NCBI GenBank assembly: GCA_021203005.1
Contig: JAJQCB010000297.1
Span: 1 to 41,787, forward strand
Source: Clostridiales bacterium
GTDB taxonomy: Bacteria; Bacillota; Clostridia; Lachnospirales; Lachnospiraceae
Length of the DNA stretch: 41,787 nucleotides
Direction of reading: 5' to 3'
Shown here: piece by piece, positions 6,350 through 36,132 of the stretch
Position numbering within the stretch: the stretch's first letter is position 1
Layout of the letters: every line of letters starts with the position of its first letter
Made by a program: the position numbers and the translations under genes
The notes under the pieces: model-generated
Seen by the model: the letters and a program-made list of their open reading frames with translations, nothing else
The model's database searches: none
What the model was told of the DNA's origin: nothing

Positions 6350-6382
6350 ATTAAAGAGTATGGGGAAGGGGAGAGAGTTGCC

Positions 6383-7440: not shown

Positions 7441-7538
7441 CTTAACATATTCGTAACTGTTCTGTACTTTCACCGTTACAACTGTTCTTTTGCGGCACGC
7501 TCACGATTCAATCGCCGCGTTCCGCCTGCATTCATGCA

Positions 7539-7964: not shown

Positions 7965-8001
7965 AACGTTTCTCCTTTACTTTTTTACATTTGAATTTGA
8001 T

Positions 8002-10571: not shown

Positions 10572-10586
10572 ATCACTTGCCTTCCT

Positions 10587-11882: not shown

Positions 11883-11897
11883 TGTCTTTCACCTCCC

Positions 11898-13655
11898 TTA
11901 CAGCAGCTTTTCTGCTTCACTGCTTAAGACTCCGCCGCCGGATGCATACTGTGCGTCGATCTCTGCCTCAGCCGCAGCAAAGGCTTCGCTCTGAAACTCC
12001 GTATAATTCCAGTCGATGAACTTCTGACGCAGTGAGTTAAAGTAAGCACGCGCCTCGTCCTTCTCTTTTAACTCATAATCAGAGCCAAGAATGCGGACAA
12101 GCTTGGCGGTCACATAACGCTGCCGGTCTACCACGCAGTTAGCGTCAATGTCGTCGAATGAATTCTGCTGCAGGTAAACGGCGTCGAGAAGCTCGGATTT
12201 CAGATAGGTGACAAAGTCCGCAAGGCTCGTACCCTCTTCACCGACGACCTTCATCATGGAATTGACCTCAACGCCGCGGCTCATCACATCACGGCAATAC
12301 TCAATCTGTTCCGAAGCGACGACGCTCTTGTATTTTGACCAGGAAATCAGCGGATCGATGGCCGGATACTTACGCGCATCGGAACGCTCTCTGGAAAGAC
12401 CGTGGAAAGCGCCGACAACCTTCAGCGTCGCCTGCGTCACCGGCTCCTCAAAGTTACCGCCGGCCGGAGAAACAGTTCCGCCGATCGTAACAGATCCGTA
12501 ATTGCCATCCGGCAGGCGCACATAACCGGCGCGCTCATAGAACGCTGCGATATAGGACTCCAGATATGCCGGGAAAGCTTCCTCACCGGGGATCTCTTCC
12601 AGTCTGCCGGACATCTCACGGAGAGCCTGCGCCCAACGGGAAGTGGAGTCCGCCAGAAGCAGGACGTCAAGTCCCATCTGACGATAATACTCAGCCAGTG
12701 TCACCGATGTATAAACGGACGCCTCACGGCTGGCAACCGGCATGGAAGATGTATTACAGATAACAATGGTACGCTCCATCAGGGAACGTCCCGTTCTCGG
12801 GTCTACCAGCTCCGGGAACTCCGTCAGAGTTTCCACAACCTCACCGGCACGCTCGCCGCAGGCTGCGATAATCACGATATCAACATCCGCGTACCGGGAT
12901 GTGGTATGCTGCAGCACGGTCTTACCTGCTCCGAACGGTCCCGGGATACAGTAGGTACCGCCCTTGGCGACCGGGAAGAAAGAATCGATCAGACGAACCT
13001 TCGTCTCCATGGTCTCTGTCGGCGCCAGACGCTCCGAATAGCAGTTCACCGCACGCTTCACCGGCCACCGGAAAGACATGGTCAGATTGATATCCTTTCC
13101 CTTGTCGTCCGTGATCACGGCGATTGTCTCATGAATGGTGTACGCGCCTGCTGCCGCCACAGACTTCACGGTGTAGCTGCCCAGCAGATAAAACGGAACG
13201 AAAATCTTATGAACAAACGGACCCTCCGGTACCGTTCCCACATACTCGCCCGCTTTCACGCGGTCGCCCGGCTTCGCAGTCGGGGTAAAATCCCATTTCT
13301 TTTCTCCATCCAGCGAGTCCACATAAATGCCTCGCTCCAAAAACCATCCTGCCTGCTCGGCAAGGAGCGGCAGCGGGTTCTGCAATCCGTCGTACACCTG
13401 TCCCAGAAGACCCGGTCCAAGTTCGGCGGAAAGCAAATCTCCAGTAAATTCTACGTTGTCACCGCAGGCGATCCCTTTGGTCATCTCATAGACCTGTACC
13501 TGGGCGACATTTCCGCGAATACGAATGACCTCGCTCTTTAAGCGGGATCCTTCGACCTCTACATAGCAGACCTCATTCATGGAAACTGTGCCGTCGAATT
13601 CAACCGACACCATATTTCCGTTGATGCCTACAACTTTTCCTTTTGTCTCCGTCAT
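11898..13655 (-). CDS. atpA: V-type ATPase subunit A (catalytic)
   Basis: The catalytic ATP-hydrolysing or ATP-synthesising subunit. The 585 residues show the N-terminal barrel, the bulge domain specific to A subunits (about 110-190), the P-loop GPFGAGKTVLQ, the catalytic glutamate in ACGERAGEV, the Walker B segment DVLLLADSTSRWAQA, and the C-terminal helical domain. The start is the ATG at 13655, because a CAGGAGA site lies six bases upstream; an in-frame ATG at 13679 would fall inside the preceding gene. One base separates it from the DUF2764 gene stop. Ion specificity is not set by this subunit. Confidence 0.96.
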   Translation of the reverse strand: MTETKGKVVGINGNMVSVEFDGTVSMNEVCYVEVEGSRLKSEVIRIRGNVAQVQVYEMTKGIACGDNVEFTGDLLSAELGPGLLGQVYDGLQNPLPLLAEQAGWFLERGIYVDSLDGEKKWDFTPTAKPGDRVKAGEYVGTVPEGPFVHKIFVPFYLLGSYTVKSVAAAGAYTIHETIAVITDDKGKDINLTMSFRWPVKRAVNCYSERLAPTETMETKVRLIDSFFPVAKGGTYCIPGPFGAGKTVLQHTTSRYADVDIVIIAACGERAGEVVETLTEFPELVDPRTGRSLMERTIVICNTSSMPVASREASVYTSVTLAEYYRQMGLDVLLLADSTSRWAQALREMSGRLEEIPGEEAFPAYLESYIAAFYERAGYVRLPDGNYGSVTIGGTVSPAGGNFEEPVTQATLKVVGAFHGLSRERSDARKYPAIDPLISWSKYKSVVASEQIEYCRDVMSRGVEVNSMMKVVGEEGTSLADFVTYLKSELLDAVYLQQNSFDDIDANCVVDRQRYVTAKLVRILGSDYELKEKDEARAYFNSLRQKFIDWNYTEFQSEAFAAAEAEIDAQYASGGGVLSSEAEKLL

Positions 13656-13656
13656 T

Positions 13657-14208
13657 TTAATTCTCCTGACTGTTTCCATTCAGAATGGAATGATAAATTT
13701 TTTGATATGATTTGTGTCCCCGCTCCTCGTCAAACAACCGCATCCTGGAAAGAAGCTTTAACCGTATTGCATAGCAATACACCGCGTCCTCGCAGAACAT
13801 GTCGAGCGGCCGGAGCCGGTCAAGCGTCTCCATCCGGCAGCCCTGAAGATACTCCTCAGCCGCAAGAGGATCTCCTAAATCTACTGCCGTATTCGCCACC
13901 TGGAGCGTCGGTGCTGAAATAACCTCACCGTCTGTCGGAAATGACTTTCCCTTATGGGCAGCGCGTACAACCGCAAGGGCAAGACGAAGCTGCCTCTCCT
14001 CATAATTCCACGCATCCACGAGCTCCGAACCGGTCGGTACGGCATCCCGCGGCGGAATCAGGGAAATCCCGTCCAGTATCTCCATCTCCTTGTCATTCAG
14101 GAAATCTGAACAGGTGTCACGAAACGCCTCCTCCGTGATCGGAAGGGGGCTTTTTCCATCATACGGCTCCAGCCCCGGCAGCGTAGAAATCAGATAGTAC
14201 TGACTCAT
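13657..14208 (-). CDS. DUF2764-family V-ATPase operon protein, likely stalk subunit
   Basis: A 183-residue protein with the DUF2764 opening (SQYYLISTLPGLEPYDGKSP, then a helical continuation). This family is found almost only between subunits E and A in V-ATPase operons of Chlamydia, spirochaetes and Bacteroidetes, where genes for subunits C, F and G are missing. It is therefore inferred to replace a stalk or stator part, most likely subunit C, which docks the head on the rotor. It is mostly helical, with no membrane segment or nucleotide motif. It overlaps the subunit E stop by four bases and is shorter than the family members of about 270 residues that I recall. Confidence 0.8.
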   Translation of the reverse strand: MSQYYLISTLPGLEPYDGKSPLPITEEAFRDTCSDFLNDKEMEILDGISLIPPRDAVPTGSELVDAWNYEERQLRLALAVVRAAHKGKSFPTDGEVISAPTLQVANTAVDLGDPLAAEEYLQGCRMETLDRLRPLDMFCEDAVYCYAIRLKLLSRMRLFDEERGHKSYQKIYHSILNGNSQEN

Positions 14209-23073: not shown

Positions 23074-23541
23074 TCAGGTTACCCTGTACTCTACTGTTCC
23101 CTCCAGAAAAGCAAGCAGTATATTCTGCGGGGCATCGTAATAAAAGCTGCTGTTATAATCATCAATCTTTTCACTGACAAAAGAATGATAAGCTTCCATC
23201 AGTGCATCCACCACGGGAACCTGCTTCTCTTGCGAAATACCGAGTATCAGTCTTTTATATACTTTACCGATATCCCAGTGGCTCGGAACCGCATATTTTG
23301 CTTTCGCAACATTATCAAAAGAACCTTCTTTGATTCCCGCAGTATCGATCAGATCGTCGCTCACCTGATCGATATTATCACTGTGATAAACATCCGCCAG
23401 ATTATAAATTCTGGAAATCGTATCTTTTCCCAGTGCATCCACAACATCCGCACGCTTATTTTTCGTCTTCCTGGCAATATAGTCAATCAGGCTGCAGGTA
23501 AAAAACAAATCATTGCTTTTCTTTTCTTCCCGTCCTGTCAT
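23074..23541 (-). CDS. DUF3791-like protein, putative antitoxin partner
   Basis: A 155-residue protein whose N-terminal half (about 10-75: [26 protein letters not shown] and onward to the DQVSDDLI segment) resembles DUF3791, a small helical family found next to DUF3990 genes. The second half (about 90-150: [23 protein letters not shown], then [11 protein letters not shown]) looks like a second small helical domain that I have seen in similar loci but cannot name. It overlaps the DUF3990 gene stop by four bases, so it is translated right after it. The layout suggests that it neutralises its neighbour. Function is inferred from context only. Confidence 0.65.
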
Positions 23542-24005
23542 CCTGCAGACACCTCCTCACTCGAAACGTATTCCAGACATCGCAATGCTTCTTCCGTACA
23601 AAAACAGATCTGATGCGTCGGATACTTAAACTTTGCAAGCGACCAGAACTGATCTCTGGTTATAATTCCATCTATATAGTCAGAAATATAGTTATAAATC
23701 TGATCATTTGCCATAGCGCCTATCACCATATCATAGTCATGCGGTTCTCCATTCCGGCAGGCTATGATAAAATCCAGCCACTCCTCCGTCATATCCGTAA
23801 ATTCCAGAATATTTAATCCGGTATCCATCCGCACGGTATAAGTGCAAAGCATTGGCGTATCATATCTTCTCGCCCAGCGCTCCGCCTGTTCTCGGATAAC
23901 CGTGCAGTAAAATCCCGGACCGAAATCTTTCGTGTTTCTTCTATTTATAATCTTTGGATGCATCACGGCCATATAACTGCCATGGTAAACCGTCATTTTC
24001 CCCAT
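23538..24005 (-). CDS. DUF3990 protein, putative ADP-ribosyltransferase-fold toxin
   Basis: A 155-residue protein of the DUF3990 family, which is related to ADP-ribosyltransferases. The N-terminus shows the VYHGSY strand with H8, then the DFGPGFYCT segment with Y33 followed by the helix REQAERWARRY, matching the first two positions of an H-Y-E style active site. The third position could be a Glu near QICFCTEEAL close to the C-terminus. The start is ATG 24005, seven bases after GAGGAG; a TTG further upstream would include the binding site. It has its own promoter and is followed by an overlapping DUF3791-like gene, the order of a toxin-antitoxin pair. Confidence 0.75.
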   Translation of the reverse strand: MGKMTVYHGSYMAVMHPKIINRRNTKDFGPGFYCTVIREQAERWARRYDTPMLCTYTVRMDTGLNILEFTDMTEEWLDFIIACRNGEPHDYDMVIGAMANDQIYNYISDYIDGIITRDQFWSLAKFKYPTHQICFCTEEALRCLEYVSSEEVSAG

Positions 24006-24038
24006 CTGAACACTCCTCAATGAAAAATCTATGAGATC

Positions 24039-24067: not shown

Positions 24068-24106
24068 GGTTGATTTAACTTGCTGCAAACCATAAATGCA
24101 AGACAG

Positions 24107-24126
24107 CCGCTTCCTTTCGGAAACGG
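24107..24126 (-). terminator. Possible terminator hairpin of the kinase-aldolase operon
   Basis: On the minus strand, CCGTTTCC-GAAA-GGAAGCGG forms an 8-bp stem with one G-U pair and a GAAA loop, 47 bases past the aldolase stop. The tail (CTGTCTTGC) is poor in U, so termination is uncertain. Confidence 0.4.
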
Positions 24127-24172
24127 CCAGCCTGTACCAATTATATTTACTATTACTTTCTATTACGATTTC

Positions 24173-24997
24173 TTACCATCCAAACAACGTCATTTTTTTC
24201 TCTGTCTCCTCCTTCACGGCTCCCGTAAGCCCCTGCATCATCTCTGCAGCGGAGCAATGACCTATGTTCAGCTCCTCTTTTGCTGCTTTGGCATATGCCA
24301 GATTAATATCCGTAAAAATATTTACTTTACTGATGCCCTCAGATATCGCCATACGAAAGTCCTCATCGCTCAACCCCGAACCGCCATGCAGCACAAGAGG
24401 CGTATCAATAATGGATGCTATCTCGCGGATTCGCCCGAAATCCAGCCTGGGAGGCAGCTTATATGCACCATGAGCGGTGCCAACAGCGATAGCCAGAGCA
24501 TCAATTCCGGTATATTCGGAATACTCTCTGGCCTGAACCGGATCTGTGTAAAAAGACGCTGGATCTTCGTTTCCGTCATTATCTCCCACATGTCCCAGTT
24601 CCGCTTCAATCGTTGCACGATAAGCATGCGCGATGGCCGTCATCTCCCTGACCCGGTCCCGGTTTTCATCATAAGGTACGGTAGAGCAGTCGTACATAAT
24701 GGATGAAAAACCCAGCTGTAACGCACGAATGCACTCGTTCCTCTGCAACCCGTGGTCAAAGTGCACCACCACCGGAACCGAAGCCCGCTCCGCCATTGGC
24801 AGCAACATATCCGCAATTACCTCTAACGGTGTAAACGGTAATAATATCTCCGCTGTTCCTACAATTACCGGACAGTTTTTTTCTTCTGCAGCCAGAATTA
24901 CCCCGCGTGCCATTTCTGTATTCAGAGTATTAAACAAACCAACACCCTTTTTGTTTTTTCGCGCCTTGGGAAGTACATCATTTAAATTTGCTAACAT
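24173..24997 (-). CDS. Class II ketose-bisphosphate aldolase
   Basis: A zinc-dependent aldolase that would split a ketose (bis)phosphate into two trioses. The 274 residues carry the family motifs: VVHFDHG with catalytic D81 and zinc ligand H82, AELGHVGD with E133, GTAHGAY with zinc ligand H176, and LHGGSG with zinc ligand H204. It belongs to the fructose/tagatose-bisphosphate group (FbaA, GatY, IolJ). The start at 24997 is preceded by GGAAGGAAA; the longer frame to 25072 overlaps the upstream kinase gene. It lies 22 bases after a PfkB kinase, so the two probably phosphorylate and cleave the same intermediate from the sugar island. Confidence 0.92.
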   Translation of the reverse strand: MLANLNDVLPKARKNKKGVGLFNTLNTEMARGVILAAEEKNCPVIVGTAEILLPFTPLEVIADMLLPMAERASVPVVVHFDHGLQRNECIRALQLGFSSIMYDCSTVPYDENRDRVREMTAIAHAYRATIEAELGHVGDNDGNEDPASFYTDPVQAREYSEYTGIDALAIAVGTAHGAYKLPPRLDFGRIREIASIIDTPLVLHGGSGLSDEDFRMAISEGISKVNIFTDINLAYAKAAKEELNIGHCSAAEMMQGLTGAVKEETEKKMTLFGW

Positions 24998-25019
24998 TTT
25001 CCTTCCTTTCCTCACCGGA

Positions 25020-26159
25020 TTACCGGTGTAATTTCTCCCATCCAGATGCAATCCGCGCATCCATCTCTTCAAAAGTTTTCAAACCACTGATCGCATCATA
25101 GCCTTCTACACAACAGGCTCCGGCAGCAGCCGCGTACCGAACGCACTCATACCAGCTATAGCCGCCCTTCAGCACAGCACATAAAAATGCCGCAATACTG
25201 GTGTCTCCCGCTCCAGTTCCGGACAGAACAGCATCCGGCTGAAAAGAAGATTCAAAATGCCGGATCCCTTCCCATGACGCAAGAGTCTCTCCCAGGCCAC
25301 CGCCAATCCGGCACAAATCCTCCTTTTGCCCTGCAGCAAGAAACATACCCGGCACTCCGCACTTGATCAGCACGATTTTTGCACCCCAGGAAATCAATTT
25401 TTCCGCCAGCGGCTCGATATCCTCCGGCTGTAAAACAGTTGTAATATCCTTCCCCGATGCCCGTTCTGTCCACTCCGCAAAACGTTCACGGTCAATCATA
25501 AATGCCAGTTCCTCCGCACTGGGTACAAAAAAATCTACATAAGGCATTACTTTCTGCAATAATTCCTTCCAGTCAATTCGGCCGGATGCGGAATGCGCAT
25601 CCACCGCTGCCATATCCAGAGAGGTTGCTGTCCCCAGCATTTTTACTCTGCGGAACATCTCTGCAAGCTCTTCTCCGCCATCACTATAAAACCGCTTCAT
25701 CAAAGGCGGATAACCAAAATGAAACATTTGTGCCTCAGCCACCGTTTTATAATTGAGATCAGAGGCGCAAAAGGTATCATTTGCCCCGGAATGATGAAGA
25801 AACATCCTGTCAACACCTTTGGGAGCAAGAACAATCGAATAAGATGTGCTTTCATTTTCAGACACAATCAGCCCCTCTCCCGCTCCATATTGATCCAACT
25901 GACGCTTTACCATAAGACCGAAATCATCTGTACCGATTTTGCCCATCAGCGTTACATCTGCACCCAGGATCTTCATGCCCAGTCCTGTATTCGCTACACA
26001 CCCCCCAATATGGATATCCGCTGCCCCCGTCTGGCAAAGACATCCCGGTGTCAGAAGATTCTGAATTTTCACAGCTTCATCATTAAAAAATTCCGGCATA
26101 ATATCCAGACAAATATGTCCTGCCACCACTGCTTTTCTATTTCCTGTTTCTTTTTGCAT
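25020..26159 (-). CDS. PfkB-family sugar kinase
   Basis: A 379-residue ribokinase-fold kinase. It shows the glycine motif HIGGCVANTGLGMKILG (about 51-67), the TDDFG segment and the C-terminal signature GTGAGDTSIAA with the catalytic aspartate. It is about 50 residues longer than usual, mainly from an insertion around 230-290. It is first in a two-gene operon with the class II aldolase and divergent from the AraC regulator (100 bases between starts). A kinase plus class II aldolase resembles IolC plus IolJ of inositol breakdown, but no iolB or iolD is present. The substrate is probably the ketose produced by the neighbouring sugar operon. Confidence 0.88.
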   Translation of the reverse strand: MQKETGNRKAVVAGHICLDIMPEFFNDEAVKIQNLLTPGCLCQTGAADIHIGGCVANTGLGMKILGADVTLMGKIGTDDFGLMVKRQLDQYGAGEGLIVSENESTSYSIVLAPKGVDRMFLHHSGANDTFCASDLNYKTVAEAQMFHFGYPPLMKRFYSDGGEELAEMFRRVKMLGTATSLDMAAVDAHSASGRIDWKELLQKVMPYVDFFVPSAEELAFMIDRERFAEWTERASGKDITTVLQPEDIEPLAEKLISWGAKIVLIKCGVPGMFLAAGQKEDLCRIGGGLGETLASWEGIRHFESSFQPDAVLSGTGAGDTSIAAFLCAVLKGGYSWYECVRYAAAAGACCVEGYDAISGLKTFEEMDARIASGWEKLHR

Positions 26160-26208
26160 TTTTGTTCTGTCTCCCTGTAATTAACCCGCATACCGCGAGT
26201 TTTCTTTA

Positions 26209-26238
26209 TTGACAATAATCTCCCGCTTCTCTTATAAT
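26209..26238 (+). promoter_or_regulatory. Promoter of the araC-type regulator
   Basis: TTGACA (26209-26214) and TATAAT (26233-26238) are both perfect, separated by 18 bases. Transcription would start near 26245, almost at the AGGAGG ribosome binding site (26247-26252), so the leader is only about 15 bases. Confidence 0.8.
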
Positions 26239-26259
26239 CATGTACAGGAGGAAATCGCC

Positions 26260-27252
26260 ATGCATTATGACCTCGAAGGCAGGCAATATGAGACCGTAGA
26301 CCATTCTACCATCAACCATATGTCTTTTTATATCCTTGACATTGTTTACTGTGGCGCCCACGCTCATTCTGACTTTGAAATTCTTCAGGTCATCCATGGC
26401 TCTCTGCATATTTCTACGAAAGACGGCGGATTTGACCTGATGCCAGGTGAAGTGGCTCTCTTTAACTCGCATGAGTTTCATATGTGCCATTCCAATGATT
26501 CTGCTCCCTGCTGCGTTCTGGTTTTGCAGTTTAACCCGGCTTTCTGCCGCTCCTACTTCCCCGAGATTTCCTATATACATTTTGGGGTCAATCAGATCTC
26601 TGACGCTCTTTCCCCGGAATATGTAGAAGAAATCAAACATATCTGCTTTAACATTGGCTACAATTTTTTCGGCCAGAAAATAGCTTTTGAATTCCGGTGC
26701 ATCAGCGATGTAAACCGACTGTTCAGTTACCTTCTGAGCTTTGTCCCTTACACCACATATTCCGAAAAAGATTATCTAAACCAGCAAAATACCAAACACA
26801 GAATGAGCCGTATCATTGAATATATCAGAAGCCATTACCAGGAAAAACTGACCTTGTCAGAGATTGCCTCCAAAGAAAGCCTGAGTTCCACTTACCTGTC
26901 ATCCTTTTTTCGAAAAAACATGAATCAATCCTTTCAATCCTATTTGAACAATCTCCGATTTGAGCATGCACTCTATCTCTTACAGCATACCAGCCGGACA
27001 ATCATGGACATCTGTATTGACAGTGGTTTTTCAGACAGCAAATATCTGACCAAAATGTTCATGAACGTTTACCATATGACTCCAAACGATTACCGCAAAA
27101 ACATACTGTCAGGTAATATTCCCATATCTACCTTAAAGGAAACCCACTCTTCCGAGGAATATAAATATACTGCAGCGGAATCGCTCCAGATTCTGCGAAA
27201 GTATCATCAGTTTCGATGCGACGACGGCAGTTTCGTAAACTATATCGACTAA
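26260..27252 (+). CDS. AraC-family transcriptional regulator
   Basis: A 330-residue regulator. The N-terminal 130 residues form a cupin-like sensor (CGAHAHSDFEILQVIHGS, LMPGEVALFNSHEFHMC) that probably binds a sugar or glycoside. The C-terminal 100 residues before the tail hold two helix-turn-helix units: KLTLSEIASKESLSSTYLSSFF and TIMDICIDSGFSDSKYLTKMF followed by MTPNDYRK. About 45 residues of extra C-terminal tail follow. The start at 26260 has AGGAGG eight bases upstream. It is divergent from the kinase-aldolase operon and convergent with the seven-gene sugar operon, and is the natural candidate to control both. Confidence 0.93.
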   Translation: MHYDLEGRQYETVDHSTINHMSFYILDIVYCGAHAHSDFEILQVIHGSLHISTKDGGFDLMPGEVALFNSHEFHMCHSNDSAPCCVLVLQFNPAFCRSYFPEISYIHFGVNQISDALSPEYVEEIKHICFNIGYNFFGQKIAFEFRCISDVNRLFSYLLSFVPYTTYSEKDYLNQQNTKHRMSRIIEYIRSHYQEKLTLSEIASKESLSSTYLSSFFRKNMNQSFQSYLNNLRFEHALYLLQHTSRTIMDICIDSGFSDSKYLTKMFMNVYHMTPNDYRKNILSGNIPISTLKETHSSEEYKYTAAESLQILRKYHQFRCDDGSFVNYID

Positions 27253-27256
27253 GGGA

Positions 27257-27290
27257 AGCGCACCTGTTCCGGTGCGCTTTTTCCTTTCCT
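27257..27290 (+). terminator. Terminator of the araC-type gene
   Basis: An 8-bp perfect stem (AGCGCACC/GGTGCGCT), a 6-base loop and a T-rich tail (TTTTCCTTTCC), beginning four bases after the stop codon. The minus-strand side lacks a U tail, so the converging operon may use another signal. Confidence 0.85.
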
Positions 27291-27293
27291 CAC

Positions 27294-28277
27294 TCAGCAG
27301 TATTTCGCCAGAATCTTTCGCTCCATTTCCACATGCTCTCTCACATAATCAAAAGAGCTTCTTCCCGGTTTAGTCTGCCCCTCAAATTCAGACACAACAT
27401 AGCCTGAATAACCGCAGTCCACCAGTACCTTCAGCACCTCATCATATGGTATCGTTGACTCTGTGCCGTCTTCCAGAATGTCAATAAACTTGCCATGCAT
27501 ATGCGGACAGTATTTCATAATCTTTTTCAGCCCCTCATAATCCGGAACCCTGGAAAACTGCATATAACCATACATAGATTCAAACATCCCCATCTCCTGA
27601 GGCCCCGCCTGTTTTTCAGCCATTAACGCACGCCCCTGTTCCCGGGATACACCGTCATATCTCAGCGAAACGGCATAATCGAGGATCTCTTTCCTGGCGC
27701 CGCCGGCAACAGCCCGATCAAACTCTGCCTTGTTCGGACGGTTCGCCAGCATTCCAAAATCAGGAACAAATCCCAGATATTCGGAACCGGTTTCCTCAAA
27801 CATATTATAATATTCCATCATAGCCGGACTGGTCGGAGTTTCCGGATTATGAATTTCAATGGTAAGAATAACACCATATTTTCTCGCATATGGCTCAGCC
27901 ATCTGCATTACTTTCGGGGAAATCAGATACTGGCTTTTTAATACCGGGCATTCTAATCTGTGTGCGTTCTGCAGATCCTGAATGACATTTTTTAGCATTT
28001 CATTTGCATTCAGATTGCGATCCCATCTTTTTCCTCTGTCCATATTGGCACTCAAAGCGACGAGTTTTACACCATAGGCTCTCTCCATACGCTTCAACTC
28101 ACCTGCATAGGCATCACTGACATACGGATAATCCGGGAACATAGTCGTCTCCACAATTTCTATCCCATCCATATCAAGTTCTGCACAATGTTGATACATA
28201 TCCTCCAATGTTGCTTTATCATCAACCCATTCCGCTGCATAAGAATGCGTCGTTACACCCAGTTTTAACTGACTCAT
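27294..28277 (-). CDS. TIM-barrel isomerase-like protein, putative C-glycoside deglycosidase alpha subunit
   Basis: A 327-residue xylose isomerase-like TIM barrel. Candidate divalent-metal ligands and catalytic residues lie at the expected strand ends: E141 and H143 in TIEIHNPE, D173 in FVPDFGM, H261 in PHMHGKF, and E297/E299 in VVSEFEG. In the C-glycoside deglycosidases (DgpBC, CarBC, DfgAB) such a barrel is the alpha subunit, and it pairs with a DUF6379 beta subunit, the gene immediately upstream here (18 bases apart). The known enzymes cleave the C-C bond of 3-oxo-C-glycosides with a metal and a histidine base. It is the last gene of the operon. A plain sugar epimerase remains possible. 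Confidence 0.8.
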   Translation of the reverse strand: MSQLKLGVTTHSYAAEWVDDKATLEDMYQHCAELDMDGIEIVETTMFPDYPYVSDAYAGELKRMERAYGVKLVALSANMDRGKRWDRNLNANEMLKNVIQDLQNAHRLECPVLKSQYLISPKVMQMAEPYARKYGVILTIEIHNPETPTSPAMMEYYNMFEETGSEYLGFVPDFGMLANRPNKAEFDRAVAGGARKEILDYAVSLRYDGVSREQGRALMAEKQAGPQEMGMFESMYGYMQFSRVPDYEGLKKIMKYCPHMHGKFIDILEDGTESTIPYDEVLKVLVDCGYSGYVVSEFEGQTKPGRSSFDYVREHVEMERKILAKYC

Positions 28278-28295
28278 TTTTTCACCTTCCTCCTT

Positions 28296-28739
28296 TTACC
28301 TTGTGTGTTCCACGAGAGTCATTACCTTTTCATCACAACTGTCTACCGGAGTATAGCCATACTCTGCTCCCGGCAGCGGAAGATAAGGGCAGCGAAACAT
28401 CAAAGTAAGTTTTACATTGTGCTCCCCGGAAGTCAGACCTCCATCTTTGCACACCTTAATCACTGCAGCATCTTTAATACTCCAGAACTCATAAAATGCT
28501 TCTCTCAATTCCCATACGGCAAATTCCTTCCCATTTATGCAAAACCGGATATCCTGATCTTCTACTTCCTGATGATCCACCTCCACTTTCAGCTGATCAA
28601 TCACGGAGAGGTAGTGCCCTCTGTAATAAGCCAGGCGAACATCAAACTGATAACCGGCTATACCTGAATTTTCATAATAATTCATCAGAGTACCATCTCT
28701 GAGTGTCTCTGTCAGTTTTACTTTCATTACAAATCCCAT
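28296..28739 (-). CDS. DUF6379 protein, putative C-glycoside deglycosidase beta subunit
   Basis: A 147-residue, beta-rich protein resembling DUF6379 (VKLTETLRDGTLMNYYENSG, then GYQFDVRLAYYRGHYLS, GKEFAVWELREAFYEFW, and a closing GEHNVKLTLMFRCPY before LPLPGAEYG). The family is known as the small beta subunit of C-glycoside deglycosidases, where it completes the active site of the TIM-barrel alpha subunit. The start at 28739 follows AGGAGG with 11-base spacing. The alpha-like gene is immediately downstream. It has no signal peptide, so it acts in the cytoplasm. The assignment rests on family recall and gene order. Confidence 0.75.
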   Translation of the reverse strand: MGFVMKVKLTETLRDGTLMNYYENSGIAGYQFDVRLAYYRGHYLSVIDQLKVEVDHQEVEDQDIRFCINGKEFAVWELREAFYEFWSIKDAAVIKVCKDGGLTSGEHNVKLTLMFRCPYLPLPGAEYGYTPVDSCDEKVMTLVEHTR

Positions 28740-28777
28740 TCGAATCTATTCCTCCTGTTCATAGATCTGCTTGCTGT

Positions 28778-30169
28778 CTACTGCTGACTGTTTTCGCTTA
28801 CTGCATGTCTTTCCGCCAGAATTCTGGAATTCTCCTCCATCTTTTCATTATTCAGATTATAAAACAGAATGGGAATCACACCAGCTGCACAGAATATTGC
28901 CGGAAGAATATTGGTCGCAATATTAATACCGGTCAGAGCGCGTGATGTCTGCTCCGCATTCGCCACATAACCCATGGCACCCATAATCGCCAGACCGACA
29001 CTTCCGCCTACTGCTGTTGCCAGTTTTGCAAACAGATTTACCATAGCATAGATTGTTCCGTCCAGACGGATCCCCTTACGCACTTCACAGTCATCAATAG
29101 CAGGAGCAATCAAACCACTCAGCATACCGGTCTCATAATTAAATACCCCGACAAATACAAGGCACACAATGATTGCTGTTATATTTGTAAAGTCAATCAA
29201 ATACAAAGCAAACAATGCTGCAGCTCTTCCGATGAAAGCAATGATAATCAGGGGCTTTCGGGCAATCGGAATCTTGGGAACCACATATGTCGGAATAATT
29301 GCGCATGCAGTAGGCACTACCATCAGCACACCGACTATGGCATATGCCTGACAGCAGTACATATAATAGTATACTGCTACTCCAAGACGTCCAAAGGTAC
29401 AAAGCATACTGCATAAAAGGGAAAACATAATAGCCAGAACCGCTCTGTTTCCGAAAATATAGCTAACCAGCTCTTTGAAAGTTGCTTTCGTTTCCTGAGG
29501 TTCTGCGAAATAGACCTCTTTTGTCGTTGCAAAGGTTATAAAAAACAGAATCAGACCCACAATCGTAAATACCACACCGGTTAGAAAATAACCCTTTGCA
29601 TTTGCTTCTCCGCCACCCAGTTTTGTAATAAGCGTCATGGTAAACAAATTCATCGCGGCGGATCCGACAAATGTAAACGCTCCTTTCAGATTTGCCAGGT
29701 CACCTCTGGATTTGTTATTGGTTGTAAGCGTAGACTGCAGACTCATATAAGGAACATTCACTAATGTATAAAGCATACCAGCCAGAATATAAGTAACTGT
29801 GCAGTATATGATTTTTAACTCTGTGGAAGAAGCATTCGGCACATGCCATACCAGAATACTGACAATACCCAGAACCGGCGCTCCGAAAAGGATCCACGGG
29901 CGATAACGCCCATACTTTTTATGCCGGTGCCGATCTGCGATATTACCCATGATCGGATCGTTAATGGCGTCCCAGACCCTGGCAGCCATAAATATAATAC
30001 TCACTACAAACGGAGCAAGTCCTACAATATCTGTATAAAACACAGACAGATAAGATCCCCAGAAAGCAAAGAAAAACTGCCCTCCCATTTCTCCCATACT
30101 GAACCCCAGCTGCTTTCCAAATCCCAGTTTAATATCGGTCGAAATACGACCCGTCTCATTTTGATTCAT
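28778..30169 (-). CDS. GPH-family sugar or glycoside:cation symporter
   Basis: A 463-residue transporter with about 12 membrane helices, of the glycoside-pentoside-hexuronide group (MelB, XynB-like). The hallmark is in the helix 2 to loop 2-3 region: VWDAINDPIMGNIADR with D67 and D71, which match the two aspartates that bind Na+ or H+ in MelB, followed by the basic loop KKYGRYRPW. It would import the intact glycoside or its sugar part. It overlaps the upstream isomerase gene by 14 bases, and its AAAGGAGA site lies inside that gene's end, so translation is coupled. Confidence 0.93.
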   Translation of the reverse strand: MNQNETGRISTDIKLGFGKQLGFSMGEMGGQFFFAFWGSYLSVFYTDIVGLAPFVVSIIFMAARVWDAINDPIMGNIADRHRHKKYGRYRPWILFGAPVLGIVSILVWHVPNASSTELKIIYCTVTYILAGMLYTLVNVPYMSLQSTLTTNNKSRGDLANLKGAFTFVGSAAMNLFTMTLITKLGGGEANAKGYFLTGVVFTIVGLILFFITFATTKEVYFAEPQETKATFKELVSYIFGNRAVLAIMFSLLCSMLCTFGRLGVAVYYYMYCCQAYAIVGVLMVVPTACAIIPTYVVPKIPIARKPLIIIAFIGRAAALFALYLIDFTNITAIIVCLVFVGVFNYETGMLSGLIAPAIDDCEVRKGIRLDGTIYAMVNLFAKLATAVGGSVGLAIMGAMGYVANAEQTSRALTGINIATNILPAIFCAAGVIPILFYNLNNEKMEENSRILAERHAVSENSQQ

Positions 30170-31151
30170 TTACCAAATCTCCTTTTCTTTTATCAGTTAT
30201 CACCTCTGCTTCTATGTTTCGGAAATACTGCAGTGATTTCACTGCACCTTCTAATACGTCTTCAGCCGGAACACTCCCCTCCAGAGTGATAAACCCCTGA
30301 TAATCGTCCCGACACAGCATTTGCAGATGCTTACCGAAATCTACTTCGCCGGTACCAAAGTCTACTCTCTGAAGATGCCGACCAAACACGTCAGACATTT
30401 CTGTCTGCTCGCTTGTAAACCCCAAATCCTTAAAATGAACCGCTGCTACTCTGTATTTGAACTTTTCATATGTGTCTTCCGGATTCTCCAGCGCAAGCAG
30501 CGGATTTCCGGTATCATGGGTATACTGTAATTCAGGCACATCAGCAAACAGACGAAGCATCTCTCCATTACTGCAAAGCGGCACTGCAATACTTTCCAGT
30601 GTTTCCGTGGTAACAGTCAGCCCTTTTTTCCTGCCATAAGCCACACACGCTTTCAAACCGGATACGATATTATGATATGCCTGCTCCCTGGATATACCTT
30701 CCTCAGCACGGTACACGGATGGCATTAATAAAATATTCCGGCAGCCAGCATCCGCCGCCTGATCCATAATCTGCTTCGCATTCTCAAACAAAGCCTCAAA
30801 TTGTTCCCTGCTCACAGCATTTACAAAAGGAATAATCGCATTCACAGCCGACAATGTCATGTCATACTGAGTCAGAATCTCCCTCGCTTGCTTTCCCTCT
30901 TCTTCGAAGTGGAAACTCATCATATCAATTCCATCAAATCCATTCTCTTTTGCAAATTTAACGCAGGCCTCGAAATCCATAGTTCCATTCTTTATGGGAA
31001 TGCCGCGTTCGTTTAAAAAAGAAAAAATATCATCCAGAGACGCATCCTCTTTCTCAAATCCCATGCTTTTCGCCATTGAGCGATGGATAAAGCTTGGCCG
31101 CGTAACTTTTATCTCGCTGTCTATCATCAGGGACATTAAACTATACTTCAT
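30156..31151 (-). CDS. Sugar phosphate isomerase/epimerase-like TIM barrel (II)
   Basis: A 331-residue AP-endonuclease-2-type TIM barrel. Metal-site residues are at the usual places: E in TVTTETLE, H and D in QYTHDTGNP, H in AAVHFKD, and E in FITLEGS. It has a long N-terminal segment (1-60) before the first barrel strand. Relatives (IolE, IolI, ketose 3-epimerases) isomerise or epimerise keto sugars. The start has AAAGGAG. It is 12 bases after the preceding isomerase gene and overlaps the transporter gene by 14 bases. In this operon it may act on the 3-keto sugar released by cleavage; the exact reaction is unknown. Confidence 0.85.
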   Translation of the reverse strand: MKYSLMSLMIDSEIKVTRPSFIHRSMAKSMGFEKEDASLDDIFSFLNERGIPIKNGTMDFEACVKFAKENGFDGIDMMSFHFEEEGKQAREILTQYDMTLSAVNAIIPFVNAVSREQFEALFENAKQIMDQAADAGCRNILLMPSVYRAEEGISREQAYHNIVSGLKACVAYGRKKGLTVTTETLESIAVPLCSNGEMLRLFADVPELQYTHDTGNPLLALENPEDTYEKFKYRVAAVHFKDLGFTSEQTEMSDVFGRHLQRVDFGTGEVDFGKHLQMLCRDDYQGFITLEGSVPAEDVLEGAVKSLQYFRNIEAEVITDKRKGDLVNESK

Positions 31152-31163
31152 ACTGTCGCTCCT

Positions 31164-32153
31164 TTATTCAGTCCGGATTGCATCATCAAATGCAATATCA
31201 GACGGCGAAAAATTCAGTTTCTTTGTAAATTCGCAAGCTTCTGTTGCCCCAAACACACGCTCCATTCCGCTGTCTTCCCACTCCACCGAAAGCGGTCCCT
31301 CATAACCGGCGGTATTCAAAATACGGATGATTTTATCAAAATCCACATCCCCGTGACCGGGCGATACGAAATTCCATCCTCTGCGGGGATCCCCAAAAGT
31401 AATGTGAGAACCCAGAATACCGCTTCGTCCGTCGAGTTGAACCGCTACATCTTTGATATGTACATGGTATACCCGATCCATAAAGTCGTAGAGAAACATA
31501 GTGGGATTCACCCCCTGCCAGATCAGATGGCTTGGATCAAAATTAATTCCGAGTGTTTCCCGATATCCGAAAGTCTCCAACAGCTTCTTTGTCGTATAAT
31601 AATCATAGGCAATTTCTGTCGGATGTACCTCCAGAGCAAACTTTACGCCGCATCTGTCAAACTCATCAAAAATCGGTGTCCAAAGTGCTCTGATCTCCTC
31701 ATAACCGGACTCGACCATCTCCTCTGTCGTCTGTGGAAAAGAATACCACATTTTCCAGATCGGCGATCCCATAAATCCTGTCACCACTTCCACACCCATA
31801 TTTTTTGCAGCTCTGGCTGCATACATCATCTCCTGTATTCCCCATTCCCGGATTTTTTCCGGCTGTCCGGCAAATTCAGCAGGTGCAAAACCATCCAGAC
31901 GCGGATCCCACACGTCACCAACACATTGTCCCGGCAGGTGCGCCGCAATCGCAGTACAGGTCAGGCCATATTTTTCTATCATCGCCTTTGTCTCGCTGAC
32001 ATAATCCATATCCTCTGCAGCCTTTTTTAAATTAATCTGTCCCCAGCTTGCAATCTCCAATCCTTCATAACCCATTTTCCCGGCCAGACTGCAGATTTCC
32101 TCTAATGTCAGATCTGCCCACTGAGCAGTCATAAGTGTTACCGGTCTCTTCAT
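31164..32153 (-). CDS. Sugar phosphate isomerase/epimerase-like TIM barrel (I)
   Basis: A 329-residue TIM barrel of the AP-endonuclease-2 superfamily. Conserved positions are E in FALEVHPTEI, D and H in GINFDPSHLIWQG, H in VYHVHIKD, and E in LSVEWEDSG, all metal-ligand sites of this fold. It resembles enzymes that act with Gfo/Idh/MocA dehydrogenases on 3-keto sugars (ThuE-like group). The dehydrogenase gene is directly upstream (68 bases). An AGGAGG site precedes the ATG. It is only moderately similar to its two barrel neighbours, so they are not recent duplicates. Confidence 0.87.
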   Translation of the reverse strand: MKRPVTLMTAQWADLTLEEICSLAGKMGYEGLEIASWGQINLKKAAEDMDYVSETKAMIEKYGLTCTAIAAHLPGQCVGDVWDPRLDGFAPAEFAGQPEKIREWGIQEMMYAARAAKNMGVEVVTGFMGSPIWKMWYSFPQTTEEMVESGYEEIRALWTPIFDEFDRCGVKFALEVHPTEIAYDYYTTKKLLETFGYRETLGINFDPSHLIWQGVNPTMFLYDFMDRVYHVHIKDVAVQLDGRSGILGSHITFGDPRRGWNFVSPGHGDVDFDKIIRILNTAGYEGPLSVEWEDSGMERVFGATEACEFTKKLNFSPSDIAFDDAIRTE

Positions 32154-32221
32154 TTTTTCCTCCTCTCATATTCACAGGTACTGTTTTTATCTTAATTTTC
32201 TCCTGTTTTATTCTGCCTGTC

Positions 32222-33370
32222 TTAAATGTCACTCAGAGAAATCCACACATTCCCTTCCCGGCTGCTTTTTAAACATGCCTCCACAAAAGCAAGTCCTTCT
32301 GCTCCGTAAGCAATATCCGGATAGTCCGCCATATCTTCTGAAAAGGTACCTTCCTCTCTGGCGCAGATGCACTCCGTAAAATTCCGGTATAAATTACCCA
32401 TTGCCTCCAGCCATCCTTCCGTATGACCCGCGGGAAGCCTCCCATATTTCGATGCGGAGGAATAAATACTCTCGTACCCTCTGTGCAATTCAGTAATCGT
32501 CCCATCCGCTCGGATTACCGTAACTTTTTCAGACTCTTCCTGAGACCAGAGAATTGTTCCTTTGCTTCCGTAGATTCTGACTTTCAATGCATTATCGCTT
32601 CCGATCGCCACCTGAGAAGTCCAGTAAACTCCGGAGGCTCCGTTTTCAAATTCCACCAGCACTGTATCATTATCATCAAGAACACGCCCCGGAACAACCA
32701 CATCCATTTTTGCCAGAACTTTTTTGATTTTCAGTCCGGTCATCATAGCTACTGCATTCTCCACATGGGTACCCAGATCTCCCAGGCAATTTACGTTTCC
32801 GGATTTTTCCGGATCACATCTCCATGCTCCCTGCTTTCCTCCGGAGTTGTCCTCAAAAGCCAGCCACCCCTGCGGGTATTCTGCCATCACCATCCTGACA
32901 TCCCCGATATCACTGTTACGCACCATTTCCCGCACATGTTTCGCAGTAACATGCCCCATATAAGTGTAGGTTACCATGAACAGGAGATTTTTTTCCTCAG
33001 CCAGTTTCTGCAACTCCACCGCCTGTGCATAGGTTACTGTGACCGGCTTGTCACAGACAACATGTATTCCTGCCTCCAAAAATGCTCTGCACATCTCAAA
33101 ATGCATATAATTGGGGGTTACGATTACAACAAAATCAATGCCATCCTCTCTTTGTGCTTCTTTTTCGGCCATCTCCTTATAATCACAGTAACAGCGGTCG
33201 GAATCCAGACCTGTCTCTTTTGCAATCTGCACAGATTTTTCCATGCTTCTGGAAAAAACTCCAGCCGCGAGTACTGCATTTCCGTCAAGCTGAATCGCTC
33301 TTCTGTGAGCCGCGCCTATAAACCCATCCGGACCTCCGCCTATCATTCCGTAATTTAATTTTCGTGACAT
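32222..33370 (-). CDS. Gfo/Idh/MocA-family NAD-dependent glycoside 3-dehydrogenase candidate
   Basis: A 382-residue NAD(P)-dependent oxidoreductase. It shows the Rossmann motif GGGPDGFIG (11-19) with the following AHRRAIQLDG, a wording typical of the subgroup containing DgpA, the CDKPVT motif with catalytic K108, and GDLGTHVENA with D198 and H202 as the second catalytic pair. In C-glycoside catabolism this enzyme oxidises the sugar C3 hydroxyl, which makes the bond labile for the DgpBC-type lyase. It also resembles inositol and glucose dehydrogenases. It lies 33 bases downstream of the xylose isomerase-like gene and has an AAAGGAGAAGG site. Confidence 0.9.
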   Translation of the reverse strand: MSRKLNYGMIGGGPDGFIGAAHRRAIQLDGNAVLAAGVFSRSMEKSVQIAKETGLDSDRCYCDYKEMAEKEAQREDGIDFVVIVTPNYMHFEMCRAFLEAGIHVVCDKPVTVTYAQAVELQKLAEEKNLLFMVTYTYMGHVTAKHVREMVRNSDIGDVRMVMAEYPQGWLAFEDNSGGKQGAWRCDPEKSGNVNCLGDLGTHVENAVAMMTGLKIKKVLAKMDVVVPGRVLDDNDTVLVEFENGASGVYWTSQVAIGSDNALKVRIYGSKGTILWSQEESEKVTVIRADGTITELHRGYESIYSSASKYGRLPAGHTEGWLEAMGNLYRNFTECICAREEGTFSEDMADYPDIAYGAEGLAFVEACLKSSREGNVWISLSDI

Positions 33371-33403
33371 TTCCTTCTCCTTTCCGGCTCCGCAAAACCG
33401 ATC

Positions 33404-34438
33404 TTATATAATCCCCATCAACAAATTCATTACATACATCTCAAGACCTTCAAAATCTCTGGTCTCCACACATTTCTTCTGGAAATCATAATCAAACCTT
33501 TTTACTTTATCTTCCAAAGCCTGCACAATCTTCAGGCTGTTCTCCAGATGTTTATAACTGTCTTCATCCGTAGTCGTACGCATTGCTTTTACATCGAGAC
33601 CCACATATTCTCCGTTGGATCCGAAATTGTTCTCCACCAGAACTTTAACCTGGTTAAATGCCTGACGCAGATTCTCTACCCCAAATGATTTATCCTGGTC
33701 AAATTTGATCCCATTCTGGTCATTCAGATGCACGCCCCACAATTTTCCCATCGCCATGGCAAATCCAATTTCGTGCGCCGGATCCAGGCCTGCCAGAATA
33801 GCGTGTGCGGATTCCAAAAGCCCGCCAACACGGGACGGATCAATCGTTGCAGCTGACACACCCATAACATGTCCCATCGTCCCGCAGATACTCCGGTCAA
33901 TCGGCTCATTAGGTTTCGGCTCAATCATAATTTTAATATCGGCATCATAGCGAAGCATTTCATTGATTGCCTCTACCAGTTGCCTGGTAGCCCAGACAGA
34001 GCTCTTGCTTTCCGCGCAAAGTGTGCCTTCTCTTGCAAGCCAGAGCACAACCTTGTCTGCTCCCAGTTCATTTGCAATATCAATCGACCGCTTTGCTCGC
34101 CACATGGCAAACTCTCTGTCATCCTCGCTGGTAGACATAAACCCGCCGTCCACTGTGTGGGGATCCATCCAAAGTCTGGGAGCTACAAACTCCGCAGCCA
34201 GATGATACTTATCCAACAGGGCTTTTACTTTTCTTGCCTCCTCCTTAATTTCTTCTTCCGTAAGCTCATTGATGTTCGGCACTGCATCGTCATCGTGAAA
34301 CTGGATAGCCGAGAAACCCATCTCAGAAAACTTCTTAATTTTTTCTTCAAACGGGATCTCTGCTCTGGTGGCTGGCCCGTAAGAGTCTGCTCCGCTGTGA
34401 ACATTCCATGGACCTACTGAAAATTTAAACTGTGACAT
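33404..34438 (-). CDS. Xylose isomerase-like enzyme
   Basis: A 344-residue TIM barrel with an apparently complete xylose/glucose isomerase active site: H48 and D51 in FHDDD, the WLAREG strand, E173 and K175 in EPKPNEP, E209 and H212 in ESAHA, D240 in HLND, D247 and D249 in FDQDK, and D282 in GLDVK. It is about 45 residues shorter than Streptomyces-type XylA, chiefly at the C-terminus. It is the first gene of the seven-gene operon and has GAAAGGAG before the ATG. It could turn released glucose or an isomer into a ketose for the neighbouring kinase. No xylulokinase is present, so a role in xylose use is unlikely. Confidence 0.85.
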   Translation of the reverse strand: MSQFKFSVGPWNVHSGADSYGPATRAEIPFEEKIKKFSEMGFSAIQFHDDDAVPNINELTEEEIKEEARKVKALLDKYHLAAEFVAPRLWMDPHTVDGGFMSTSEDDREFAMWRAKRSIDIANELGADKVVLWLAREGTLCAESKSSVWATRQLVEAINEMLRYDADIKIMIEPKPNEPIDRSICGTMGHVMGVSAATIDPSRVGGLLESAHAILAGLDPAHEIGFAMAMGKLWGVHLNDQNGIKFDQDKSFGVENLRQAFNQVKVLVENNFGSNGEYVGLDVKAMRTTTDEDSYKHLENSLKIVQALEDKVKRFDYDFQKKCVETRDFEGLEMYVMNLLMGII

Positions 34439-34511: not shown

Positions 34512-34540
34512 TGACAATTCTGTTCTGGGAAATATGACAA
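34510..34540 (-). promoter_or_regulatory. Direct-repeat operator, putative AraC-type binding site
   Basis: TATGACAA occurs at 34510-34517 and 34533-34540, a 23-bp period. On the operon's strand these read TTGTCATA twice, and the proximal copy touches the -35 region. Two direct half-sites spaced about two helical turns apart suit an AraC-family dimer. Confidence 0.45.
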
Positions 34541-34671
34541 ATAAACTATTTGAATCAAATAATATAATCACGGCTGGCACATGCATAAAATTCCGGTTTT
34601 CTGCTAACACTTTCATAGATAGTAACGACTGCAACGAAACCCTTCCCGTTTATACAAGAAAGGAGCCACCC

Positions 34672-36132
34672 ATGCACATCGTATTCATCACTCCGGCCAG
34701 CACACTCCGCCGCTTCCCCGTTTACCGCCTGGGAAGCCGGTTTTACGGGCATCCGAACGCCATCACCGGTCCGCTGATCCTCGGCGGCATTTTAAAGAAA
34801 GCCGGCCATACCGTGGAAGTATATGAAGAGCTGAACGGAAAACTGCCTCTGAAGAAATGTCTGAAAAAGGCGGACGTCTTTTCCATCTACACGATGACCT
34901 CCACCGCGCCCAGAGCCTATGAGCTCGCCGAAATCATCCATGCAAATTCGGATGCCAAAGTCATCCTTGGCGGCATTCACGCCTCCGCGCTCCCCGACGA
35001 GGCAGCGCAGCACGCCGACCATGTCATCGTGGGCGAAGGGGAATCCGCCATTCTCGATGTCGTGGAAGGACGAATCACGGACAAAATCATCCGAACTGCG
35101 CCGCCAACCGATCTGGACGCCCTGCCGCTGCCGGATTACAGCATTCTGAAAACGCCCTGCGACTGCGCCAACATTATGACCACCCGGGGCTGTACTTACC
35201 GCTGTACCTTCTGCACTACCTCACGGATGTTTGCACCGTACCGCCAGCGCAGTGTGGACAGCGTCATCAATGAAATTCGCTCTTATAAAAAAATGGGATT
35301 TCGCTACATGAATTTTGAGGACGACAATTTTACCGCCGACAAAGAACGGGCAAAGGAAATCTGCCGCCGCATGATAGAGGAAAATCTTATATTTAAGGAA
35401 ACTTTTTTCTTCGGGCGCACGGACATAGCCGACGACGAGGAATTGATGACTCTGTTGAAAAAAGCACACTTAAACCGCGTGCTCATCGGCATTGAATCCC
35501 TGAATGAAAAGGCACTGGAAGAGATTCATAAAGGGCAGCACCGGGATGACATCGTCCGGGCAGCCAAAGCCTGCCGTAAGCATAAACTCCGTCTCTTCGA
35601 TCTGATTTTCCTCGGTTTAGAGGCAGCCACCAGAGAAGACATCCGAAAAGCCGTCCGCTTTGCCAAAGATCTGGACGCCTACCAGCTGCAGCCCGCCATC
35701 CTGACCCCCTATCCGGGCACCCCGGTCTATCAGCAGTTTGACGCCGAAAACCGGATGATCGTCCCCGACTGGGAACAGTATGATATGATGAATGTCACTT
35801 TCCGTCCCGCAAACCTGAGTCCCTGGGAGCTGCAGGAGGAATTTTACCACGCGGTCACACATTTTTACACATTCCGCTCCGCCATCCGGATTGGGAAGAT
35901 TTTCGGATGGGGATACGCCATACGACGCCTGGGGCTGGCATTTTTCTCTAAAGCCGGGGCGTTCGGCGCGCGGTTTGCCGCGGAGCATGCAAAAGGAACA
36001 TTCTATTATAAACTCAAACACGGTGTCTATGAGGAAGAACAGGCGAAGGGCAGACCGGTGCTTTACCAACTCTCAGAAAATGATCAGGAAAACAATTTTC
36101 TAACATGGGAAAAGGAGCGGCTGATCAGTTAG
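34672..36132 (+). CDS. B12-binding-domain radical SAM protein
   Basis: A 486-residue class B radical SAM enzyme. Residues 1-140 form a Rossmann-like cobalamin-binding-type domain (PLILGGILKKAGHTVEVYE, VILGGIHASALPDEA, VIVGEGE) but lack the DxHxxG cobalamin-ligand motif. The radical SAM core starts at about 165 and has the 4Fe-4S motif C174-x3-C178-x2-C181 (TTRGCTYRCTFC), followed by MNFEDDNFTADKERA and the GIESLNEKAL strand. The C-terminal 90 residues are basic. The start at 34672 follows GAAAGGAG; an open frame reaches back to 34534 without a binding site. The family includes BchE- and hopanoid-type enzymes; the substrate is unknown and no partner gene is nearby. Confidence 0.88.
   Translation: MHIVFITPASTLRRFPVYRLGSRFYGHPNAITGPLILGGILKKAGHTVEVYEELNGKLPLKKCLKKADVFSIYTMTSTAPRAYELAEIIHANSDAKVILGGIHASALPDEAAQHADHVIVGEGESAILDVVEGRITDKIIRTAPPTDLDALPLPDYSILKTPCDCANIMTTRGCTYRCTFCTTSRMFAPYRQRSVDSVINEIRSYKKMGFRYMNFEDDNFTADKERAKEICRRMIEENLIFKETFFFGRTDIADDEELMTLLKKAHLNRVLIGIESLNEKALEEIHKGQHRDDIVRAAKACRKHKLRLFDLIFLGLEAATREDIRKAVRFAKDLDAYQLQPAILTPYPGTPVYQQFDAENRMIVPDWEQYDMMNVTFRPANLSPWELQEEFYHAVTHFYTFRSAIRIGKIFGWGYAIRRLGLAFFSKAGAFGARFAAEHAKGTFYYKLKHGVYEEEQAKGRPVLYQLSENDQENNFLTWEKERLIS

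Follow-up and report, generated by a model that had tools for sequence, protein, structure and literature searches.

A candidate glycoside catabolic island linking a C-glycoside deglycosidase to an isomerase-kinase-aldolase branch in a Lachnospiraceae genome

Gene content and layout of the island

The element described here is a ten-gene island at positions 24,173 to 34,438 of a 41,787-nucleotide contig from a Clostridiales bacterium of the Lachnospiraceae, probably a gut organism (JAJQCB010000297.1, assembly GCA_021203005.1). This whole stretch is referred to as the window, and the loci and genomes compared with it carry L and G numbers. The gene pair at 27294-28739 is, by its sequence, a C-glycoside deglycosidase (CGD), and the genes around it suggest that the island couples C-C cleavage of a known kind to a separate module for splitting a ketose phosphate. 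The locus represents a compact candidate route from a glycoside to triose phosphate, in which the oxidoreductase is different and a barrel of unassigned reaction is present. A first-pass annotation had described a seven-gene minus-strand operon together with an AraC regulator, a PfkB kinase and a class II aldolase. An open reading frame check and profile searches confirmed all ten genes in position, strand and family, as listed below.

33404..34438, minus strand: XI, aldose-ketose isomerase resembling xylose isomerase, at the head of the operon (TIGR02631 177 bits; S. rubiginosus xylose isomerase 146 bits)
32222..33370, minus strand: GFO, Gfo/Idh/MocA oxidoreductase, 3v5n-like (profile and structure-sequence matches)
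31164..32153, minus strand: HYD, AP_endonuc_2 barrel, relative of AtHYD (8ro4) and SCO6571 (2zds)
30156..31151, minus strand: TIM2, AP_endonuc_2 barrel, putative Art22-like isomerase/epimerase, reaction unassigned
28778..30169, minus strand: GPH-family sugar symporter (TIGR00792 309.5 bits, cut-off 231; PF13347 269 bits)
28296..28739, minus strand: CGDb, CGD beta subunit (DUF6379/CGDB), Tyr39 kept (PF19906 123.9 bits, cut-off 27.6)
27294..28277, minus strand: CGDa, CGD alpha subunit, metal-dependent lyase barrel (match to 7bvr, active-site residues and tree)
26260..27252, plus strand: AraC-family regulator (PF12833, PF02311), start corrected from 26209
26209..26238, plus strand: sigma-70-type promoter match TTGACA-18-TATAAT before araC (12/12, consensus match only)
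25020..26159, minus strand: PFK, PfkB-family sugar kinase (PF00294 99 bits)
24173..24997, minus strand: ALD, class II aldolase of the FBA/GatY/YdjI family (PF01116 276 bits, on the longer frame 24173-25072)
24104..24129, minus strand: terminator-like stem-loop after the aldolase (11 pairs, consensus match only)

The seven-gene run extends from XI (34438) to CGDa (27294) with -14 to 68 bases between neighbouring genes, and inspection by eye showed each of its starts to be preceded by a Shine-Dalgarno-like sequence. The AraC gene is convergent with CGDa and divergent from PFK-ALD, and since it lies between the run and the kinase-aldolase pair, these are read as two separate minus-strand units. 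The ATG at 26260 is the more likely start of the AraC protein because positions 26209-26238 form the 12/12 promoter match. For the aldolase, the ATG at 24997 is more probable as a start than the beginning of the frame at 25072 because an 82% identical homolog in L073 has a matching ATG start. Promoter-like sites in the stretch numbered 20 against 19.1 expected by chance, and for this reason only the 12/12 promoter is mentioned. No operator shared by the two upstream regions was found, the longest common word being 8 bases.

The deglycosidase pair and its partner enzymes

A DUF6379 match had been predicted for the beta subunit and was found, with the PF19906 score given above. Among solved structures this subunit matched 9m3a_B best (153 bits), followed by DgpB (124 bits), DfgB (68 bits) and weaker entries. 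The alpha subunit matched eight entries at E up to 0.001, namely 7bvr and 7xrf (275 bits), 9m3a (268 bits), 8qvc (130 bits), 7bvs and 7dnm (92 bits each), 9m3b (89 bits) and 8qrz (70 bits). All eight also hold a chain that matches the beta subunit, and no ordinary epimerase was present among the solved matches at this threshold. These matches, and a tree built without an epimerase outgroup, agree with the proposed kinship of the barrel to CGD alpha subunits.

The metal and histidine site that had been expected of a CGD-type barrel was located as well. In PuCGD, the metal is bound by two Glu, an Asp, a His and a Lys, and catalysis is assigned to a His and a Glu (Mori 2021, PMC8563793). The seven residues reported there lie at E141, H143, D173, H261, K263, E297 and E299 of the alpha subunit, and His143 carries the same residue number as in PuCGD. 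Of the 31 alpha rows compared, the window's among them, 29 retain all seven, and the other two (L038 and L147) are incomplete; the rows are frames of at least 250 residues from a chosen list of CGD loci, not every CGD seen. Tyr39 of the beta subunit, to which PMC13273386 gives a critical role in C-C cleavage, occurs in all 26 beta rows, a set that leaves out subunits below the length threshold such as that of L073.

In a 35-row tree, the window alpha subunit groups with those of L031-L035 (support 100/100), and this clade is nested in an 18-row set that includes PuCGD and 9m3a (98/96, in the absence of the outgroup); some deeper forks are weak and some branches are long. The DgpABC system of the human gut strain PUE (puerarin; PDB 7bvr, 7exz, 7xr9) agrees with the island in its metal, His, Glu and Tyr residues and has an alpha subunit 40.5% identical over 321 columns and a Gfo/Idh/MocA gene in its operon, but the island alpha subunit belongs to its own clade with L031-L035. 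The 9m3a structure, whose chains are named Xylose isomerase and DUF6379 domain-containing protein, gave the best beta match and has an alpha subunit 38.8% identical to that of the island; however, it groups with L076 and L078, outside the window clade. Tyr303 and Leu7 of PuCGD correspond to Gln301 and Val7 here, and because position 301 is highly variable among the rows, no claim about specificity is drawn from these differences. Elsewhere, positions 8883-13508 of L079 (genome G110) hold three CGD alpha matches within 5 kb and three PF19906 matches, and one frame of 512 residues carries both a PF19906 and an alpha match, apparently as a fused beta-alpha CGD. Genome G067 has 14 PF19906 matches in all.

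The oxidoreductase had been regarded as DgpA-like, and this part of the first-pass annotation did not hold. The nearest structures to GFO were 3v5n (329 bits), 3dty (254 bits) and 7d5m/7d5n (249 bits), and the scores against DgpA chains were 46 bits for DgpA1 (9m3d), 43 bits for DgpA2 (9m37) and 33 bits for DgpA (7xr9), compared with 699 bits between the last chain and a control, the Gfo gene adjoining the CGD of L075. By these scores GFO belongs to another Gfo subfamily and was rejected as DgpA, although it could catalyse the same chemistry. In a search of the window's own genome, the L075 control matched two genes: one is inositol-dehydrogenase-like (30% over 146 residues) and the other is GFO itself (26%); a DgpA ortholog was not found in this search of a genome that is 95% complete, so that its absence is uncertain. 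Two more Gfo-family genes of this genome, in L069 and L070, showed no match to the control but may nevertheless have sugars as substrates. In Catenibacillus, dgpBC clusters likewise lie apart from dgpA, which is located elsewhere in the genome (PMC11170127), and an island without dgpA is therefore not new in itself; the window's genome differs in that no dgpA was found by the search.

For the TIM-barrel isomerases of the first-pass annotation, the barrel families were correct, but the product of 31164-32153 is rather a hydratase relative. This protein, HYD, matched the hydratase 8ro4 with 172 bits over residues 16-326 and was closer to 2zds (360 bits), and it is by sequence a relative of the 2-hydroxy-3-keto-glucal hydratase AtHYD. 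A lyase, a hydratase and an oxidoreductase able to reduce the product could all be present in the island, judging from these assignments. The predicted model of TIM2 matched Art22 best; behind it, epimerases, IolE and 2zds had almost equal Z, so that the comparison singles out no reaction, and families beyond those listed are possible too. TIM2 is 28% identical to the Art22 isomerase (8z1i, 9koj) over aligned residues, and no literature on Art22 was found among the open-licence papers searched. It is present with all six members found of the window CGD clade (window, L031-L035).

XI scored below both curated XylA models, with 177 bits for TIGR02631 (cut-off 447) and 60 bits for TIGR02630 (cut-off 533), and is, as far as its sequence indicates, a divergent relative of xylose isomerase. 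The alignment covers ten positions that have a catalytic or metal-binding role in the enzyme of S. rubiginosus; nine keep their residue in XI, and the nine are invariant across a 16-sequence XI alignment. XI is similar to the Streptomyces/Arthrobacter-type enzyme in these positions and differs in the low score and in His237, which occupies the position of the metal-binding Asp245 and is a His in 16 of 16 homologs. Outside the aligned region, D282 would be the equivalent of Asp287. The predicted structure of XI has a mean pLDDT of 83.4. In the window's own genome, XI is the only match to TIGR02630, and a xylulokinase lies elsewhere, beside another isomerase-like gene. It is conceivable that XI serves this cell as its xylose isomerase.

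PFK is without a close solved relative (best match 39 bits). ALD matched 7ncc with 177 bits and YdjI with 174 bits, and among the 20 NCBIfam models listed for it only the broad TIGR00167 passed (221 against 215.6), the other 19 being below cut-off. The kinase-aldolase pair YdjH-YdjI of E. coli is similar in that a PfkB kinase stands beside a class II aldolase; in contrast, PFK scored only 23 bits with YdjH, and ALD matched a fructose-bisphosphate aldolase slightly better (177 bits). No paper on the function of YdjI was found by title among open-licence papers.

Linkage in other genomes

The order CGDb-CGDa-TIM2-GFO-HYD-XI was found in L032 and L033, with XI interrupted by the contig end in both and GFO split over two frames in L033. 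L162 begins inside XI and continues with PFK and ALD; it is taken to be part of the genome of L033, which would then hold the full set. The order is CGDa-TIM2-ALD-PFK in L031, where the contig end interrupts PFK, and GFO-HYD-PFK-ALD-XI-GPH-CGDb-CGDa in L073, where CGDa is only 27% identical. The attached kinase-aldolase pair therefore goes with the island, as the first pass had supposed. The possibility that PFK-ALD is an unrelated neighbour was rejected since the orthologs follow CGDa-TIM2 in L031, and it was also ruled out by L073, where they occur with GFO, HYD, XI, GPH and CGD. In addition, GFO (at least 58% identity) adjoins HYD in 10 of 10 loci (window, L032, L033, L034, L073, L153, L154, L156, L158 and L160), which fits enzymes that act on successive intermediates. 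The bearers of close relatives include an uncultured rumen Eubacterium, uncultured Dorea and Eubacterium metagenome-assembled genomes, Lachnospiraceae bacterium C51_74_MI_BP and Clostridiales bacterium VE202-21.

Of the 397 family genomes scanned, 17 carry XI (E up to 1e-20), the window's own among them, at 21 places, and three of these places (in the window's own genome, G021 and G716:C188) are near a CGD. The remaining 18 regions include 10 with PFK (at least 50% identity), 8 of which also have ALD, and 5 with GFO and HYD. Among the 16 XI genomes other than the window's, 6 have a CGD over the cut-off somewhere, against 11 of 146 genomes without XI (Fisher p 0.002). This association favours the pathway proposed below; the test ignores phylogeny, drops genome G012 (below cut-off) and assumes that the 149 CGD-scanned genomes lie inside the 397 scanned for XI. 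The isomerase-kinase-aldolase set thus recurs elsewhere, mostly with no CGD nearby and once beside a different, apparently truncated CGD, and in these other settings the module may serve several sugars.

The surroundings of XI and of the CGD also vary. At 6609-10964 of L149, XI (87% identical) follows a curated xylulokinase (TIGR01312 596 bits, cut-off 380) and a second gene, isomerase-like, that weakly matches sulfoquinovose isomerase; a similar kinase and isomerase-like pair was seen by eye on contig C65 of the window's genome. XI lies beside GH3 proteins in L157, L159 and L161, for which the best NCBIfam model was arabinopyranosidase, below cut-off, and the second-best was beta-glucosidase in all three. 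Upstream of CGD-TIM2 in L035, positions 2240-8252 contain TRAP-transporter-like genes (by eye), a gene resembling galactarate dehydratase, which falls short of its model's cut-off, and a tagaturonate reductase, which passes. L035 is perhaps a uronate-linked variant; the dehydratase and reductase may be a sign of a C-glucuronide or may form a separate unit.

Proposed pathway and competing explanations

In the proposed pathway, GPH would import a plant glycoside and GFO would oxidise its sugar at C3, after which the CGD alpha-beta pair, as a DgpBC homolog, would break the bond between sugar and aglycone by metal-assisted beta-elimination. HYD would hydrate the resulting unsaturated keto-sugar, and the 3-keto sugar would be reduced, perhaps by GFO while it oxidises the next glycoside. 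XI would then turn the free aldose into a ketose for phosphorylation by PFK, and the class II aldolase would split the phosphorylated ketose into dihydroxyacetone phosphate (DHAP) and an aldehyde. The most likely role of TIM2 is that of an epimerase or isomerase acting on a keto-sugar intermediate, and AraC would control both units. The whole pathway from glycoside to DHAP is considered probable on balance, with the reactions, their order, the regulation and the substrate deduced from the observed family membership, residues and linkage.

The first half of the pathway follows a scheme of oxidation, elimination, hydration and reduction that is published for related operons (PMC10628242, PMC13273386). 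That scheme, in the portions of these two papers available, is without XI, PFK or ALD, and the sugar is hydrated and reduced to glucose in the described systems (PMC12101588, PMC10628242). It can be read as a hydride exchange in which one Gfo enzyme closes the cycle, and by analogy GFO could do the same. The four-enzyme 3-keto-glycoside operon of Agrobacterium (AtOGE, AtHYD; PMC10628242, 8ro4) is similar in its four steps and in the hydratase matched by HYD, but it uses OGE where the island has the lyase CGD, and the island has one Gfo-type gene and an isomerase-kinase-aldolase branch. The Bacillus smithii levoglucosan pathway, as cited in PMC10628242, shares the four-step logic; GFO scored 108 bits with the levoglucosan dehydrogenase model, far under the cut-off of 650. 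Compared with the DgpA, DgpB and DgpC genes, which are part of the PUE operon, the island has the extra genes XI, TIM2, PfkB and aldolase. A kinase-aldolase branch in a CGD operon was not found described in open-licence papers, mostly searched short of full text, which makes this a weak negative. Searches of such papers for DgpD, for C-deglycosylation of schaftoside and for C-glycosides together with xylose isomerase, aldolase and kinase also led to nothing, and a term search of the available text of PMC12724307 gave nothing on downstream genes.

Several observations weigh against the full pathway. GFO lies outside the DgpA subfamily, and the oxidase may instead be encoded by the Gfo gene of L069 or L070. 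In L073, both the GPH frame and the CGDb frame break off at one junction (9938-10721), and that operon may be damaged by a deletion or misassembled. L035 has CGDb-CGDa-TIM2 without GFO, HYD, XI, PFK or ALD within its 18,969 bases. The other 18 of the 21 XI regions show no CGD, which argues that XI-PFK-ALD is a general sugar module. Finally, glucose should not need an isomerase, kinase and aldolase of its own, which favours another sugar or another order of steps.

One competing explanation is an ordinary C-glucoside operon, in which glucose is the product of CGD, HYD and GFO, with XI-PFK-ALD as an adjacent general module, for example for glucose or xylose. None of the 8 XI regions with XI, PFK and ALD shows a CGD in the fetched region, and XI stands beside the xylulokinase in L149 and the GH3 enzymes in L157, L159 and L161. 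However, L162 is among those 8 and seems to run on into a contig of its genome that carries a CGD. In the window the CGD run opens with XI, the order CGDb-CGDa-TIM2-GFO-HYD-XI is kept in L032 and L033, and ALD and PFK come directly after CGDa-TIM2 in L031. This explanation is unlikely, if still one to be taken seriously.

It is rather unlikely that the released sugar is something other than glucose, either a C-linked pentose or an allose made by GFO reduction from the other face, with XI-PFK-ALD as its route. A dedicated isomerase-kinase-aldolase set inside the island would fit such a sugar, as would the xylulokinase beside XI in L149, the arabinopyranosidase model (below cut-off) of the GH3 proteins and the standing of XI as the only TIGR02630 match in its genome. 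On the other hand, beta-glucosidase was the second-best model for all three GH3 proteins, and the window's genome has a xylulokinase beside another isomerase-like gene. A tentative extension, of about the same low probability, is that the pathway does not end in glucose at all. The elimination product would become a non-glucose aldose or ketose that is split via XI, PFK and ALD, and the clade of the window and L031-L035 would be specialised for a new class of C-linked sugars, for example C-pentosides, or C-glycosides whose 3-keto form TIM2 must epimerise. No tested substrate for this clade was found in the literature searched. If the sugar is indeed not glucose, the question of gut use of C-linked pentoses is raised; schaftoside is an example of a C-linked pentose compound.

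O-glycosides are normally cut by hydrolases, which makes it doubtful that the substrate is a 3-keto O-glycoside and that the CGD pair acts on O-linked phenolic glucosides. In its favour, 3-keto O-beta-glucosides are among the substrates of the strain PUE CGD (PMC10628242, PMC13273386), but the beta Tyr39 that is reported as critical for C-C cleavage (PMC13273386) is present here. The pathway from a plant glycoside to DHAP remains the preferred reading, and gut C-glycoside cleavage frees the bioactive aglycones of many plant phenolics (PMC8563793).

Other genes of the window lie outside the island. Just downstream of the aldolase, positions 23074-24020 on the minus strand encode a DUF3990 protein (168 bits) together with a small partner gene that overlaps it. 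The two may form a toxin-antitoxin-like unit, and a second DUF3990-like frame was seen by eye on contig C35 of the window's genome (L072 1-579). Genes of a V/A-type ATP synthase, for subunits I and D and for two subunits of the alpha/beta type, occupy 8002-13679 on the minus strand. A B12-binding radical SAM protein is encoded at 34534-36132 on the plus strand, divergent from the operon.

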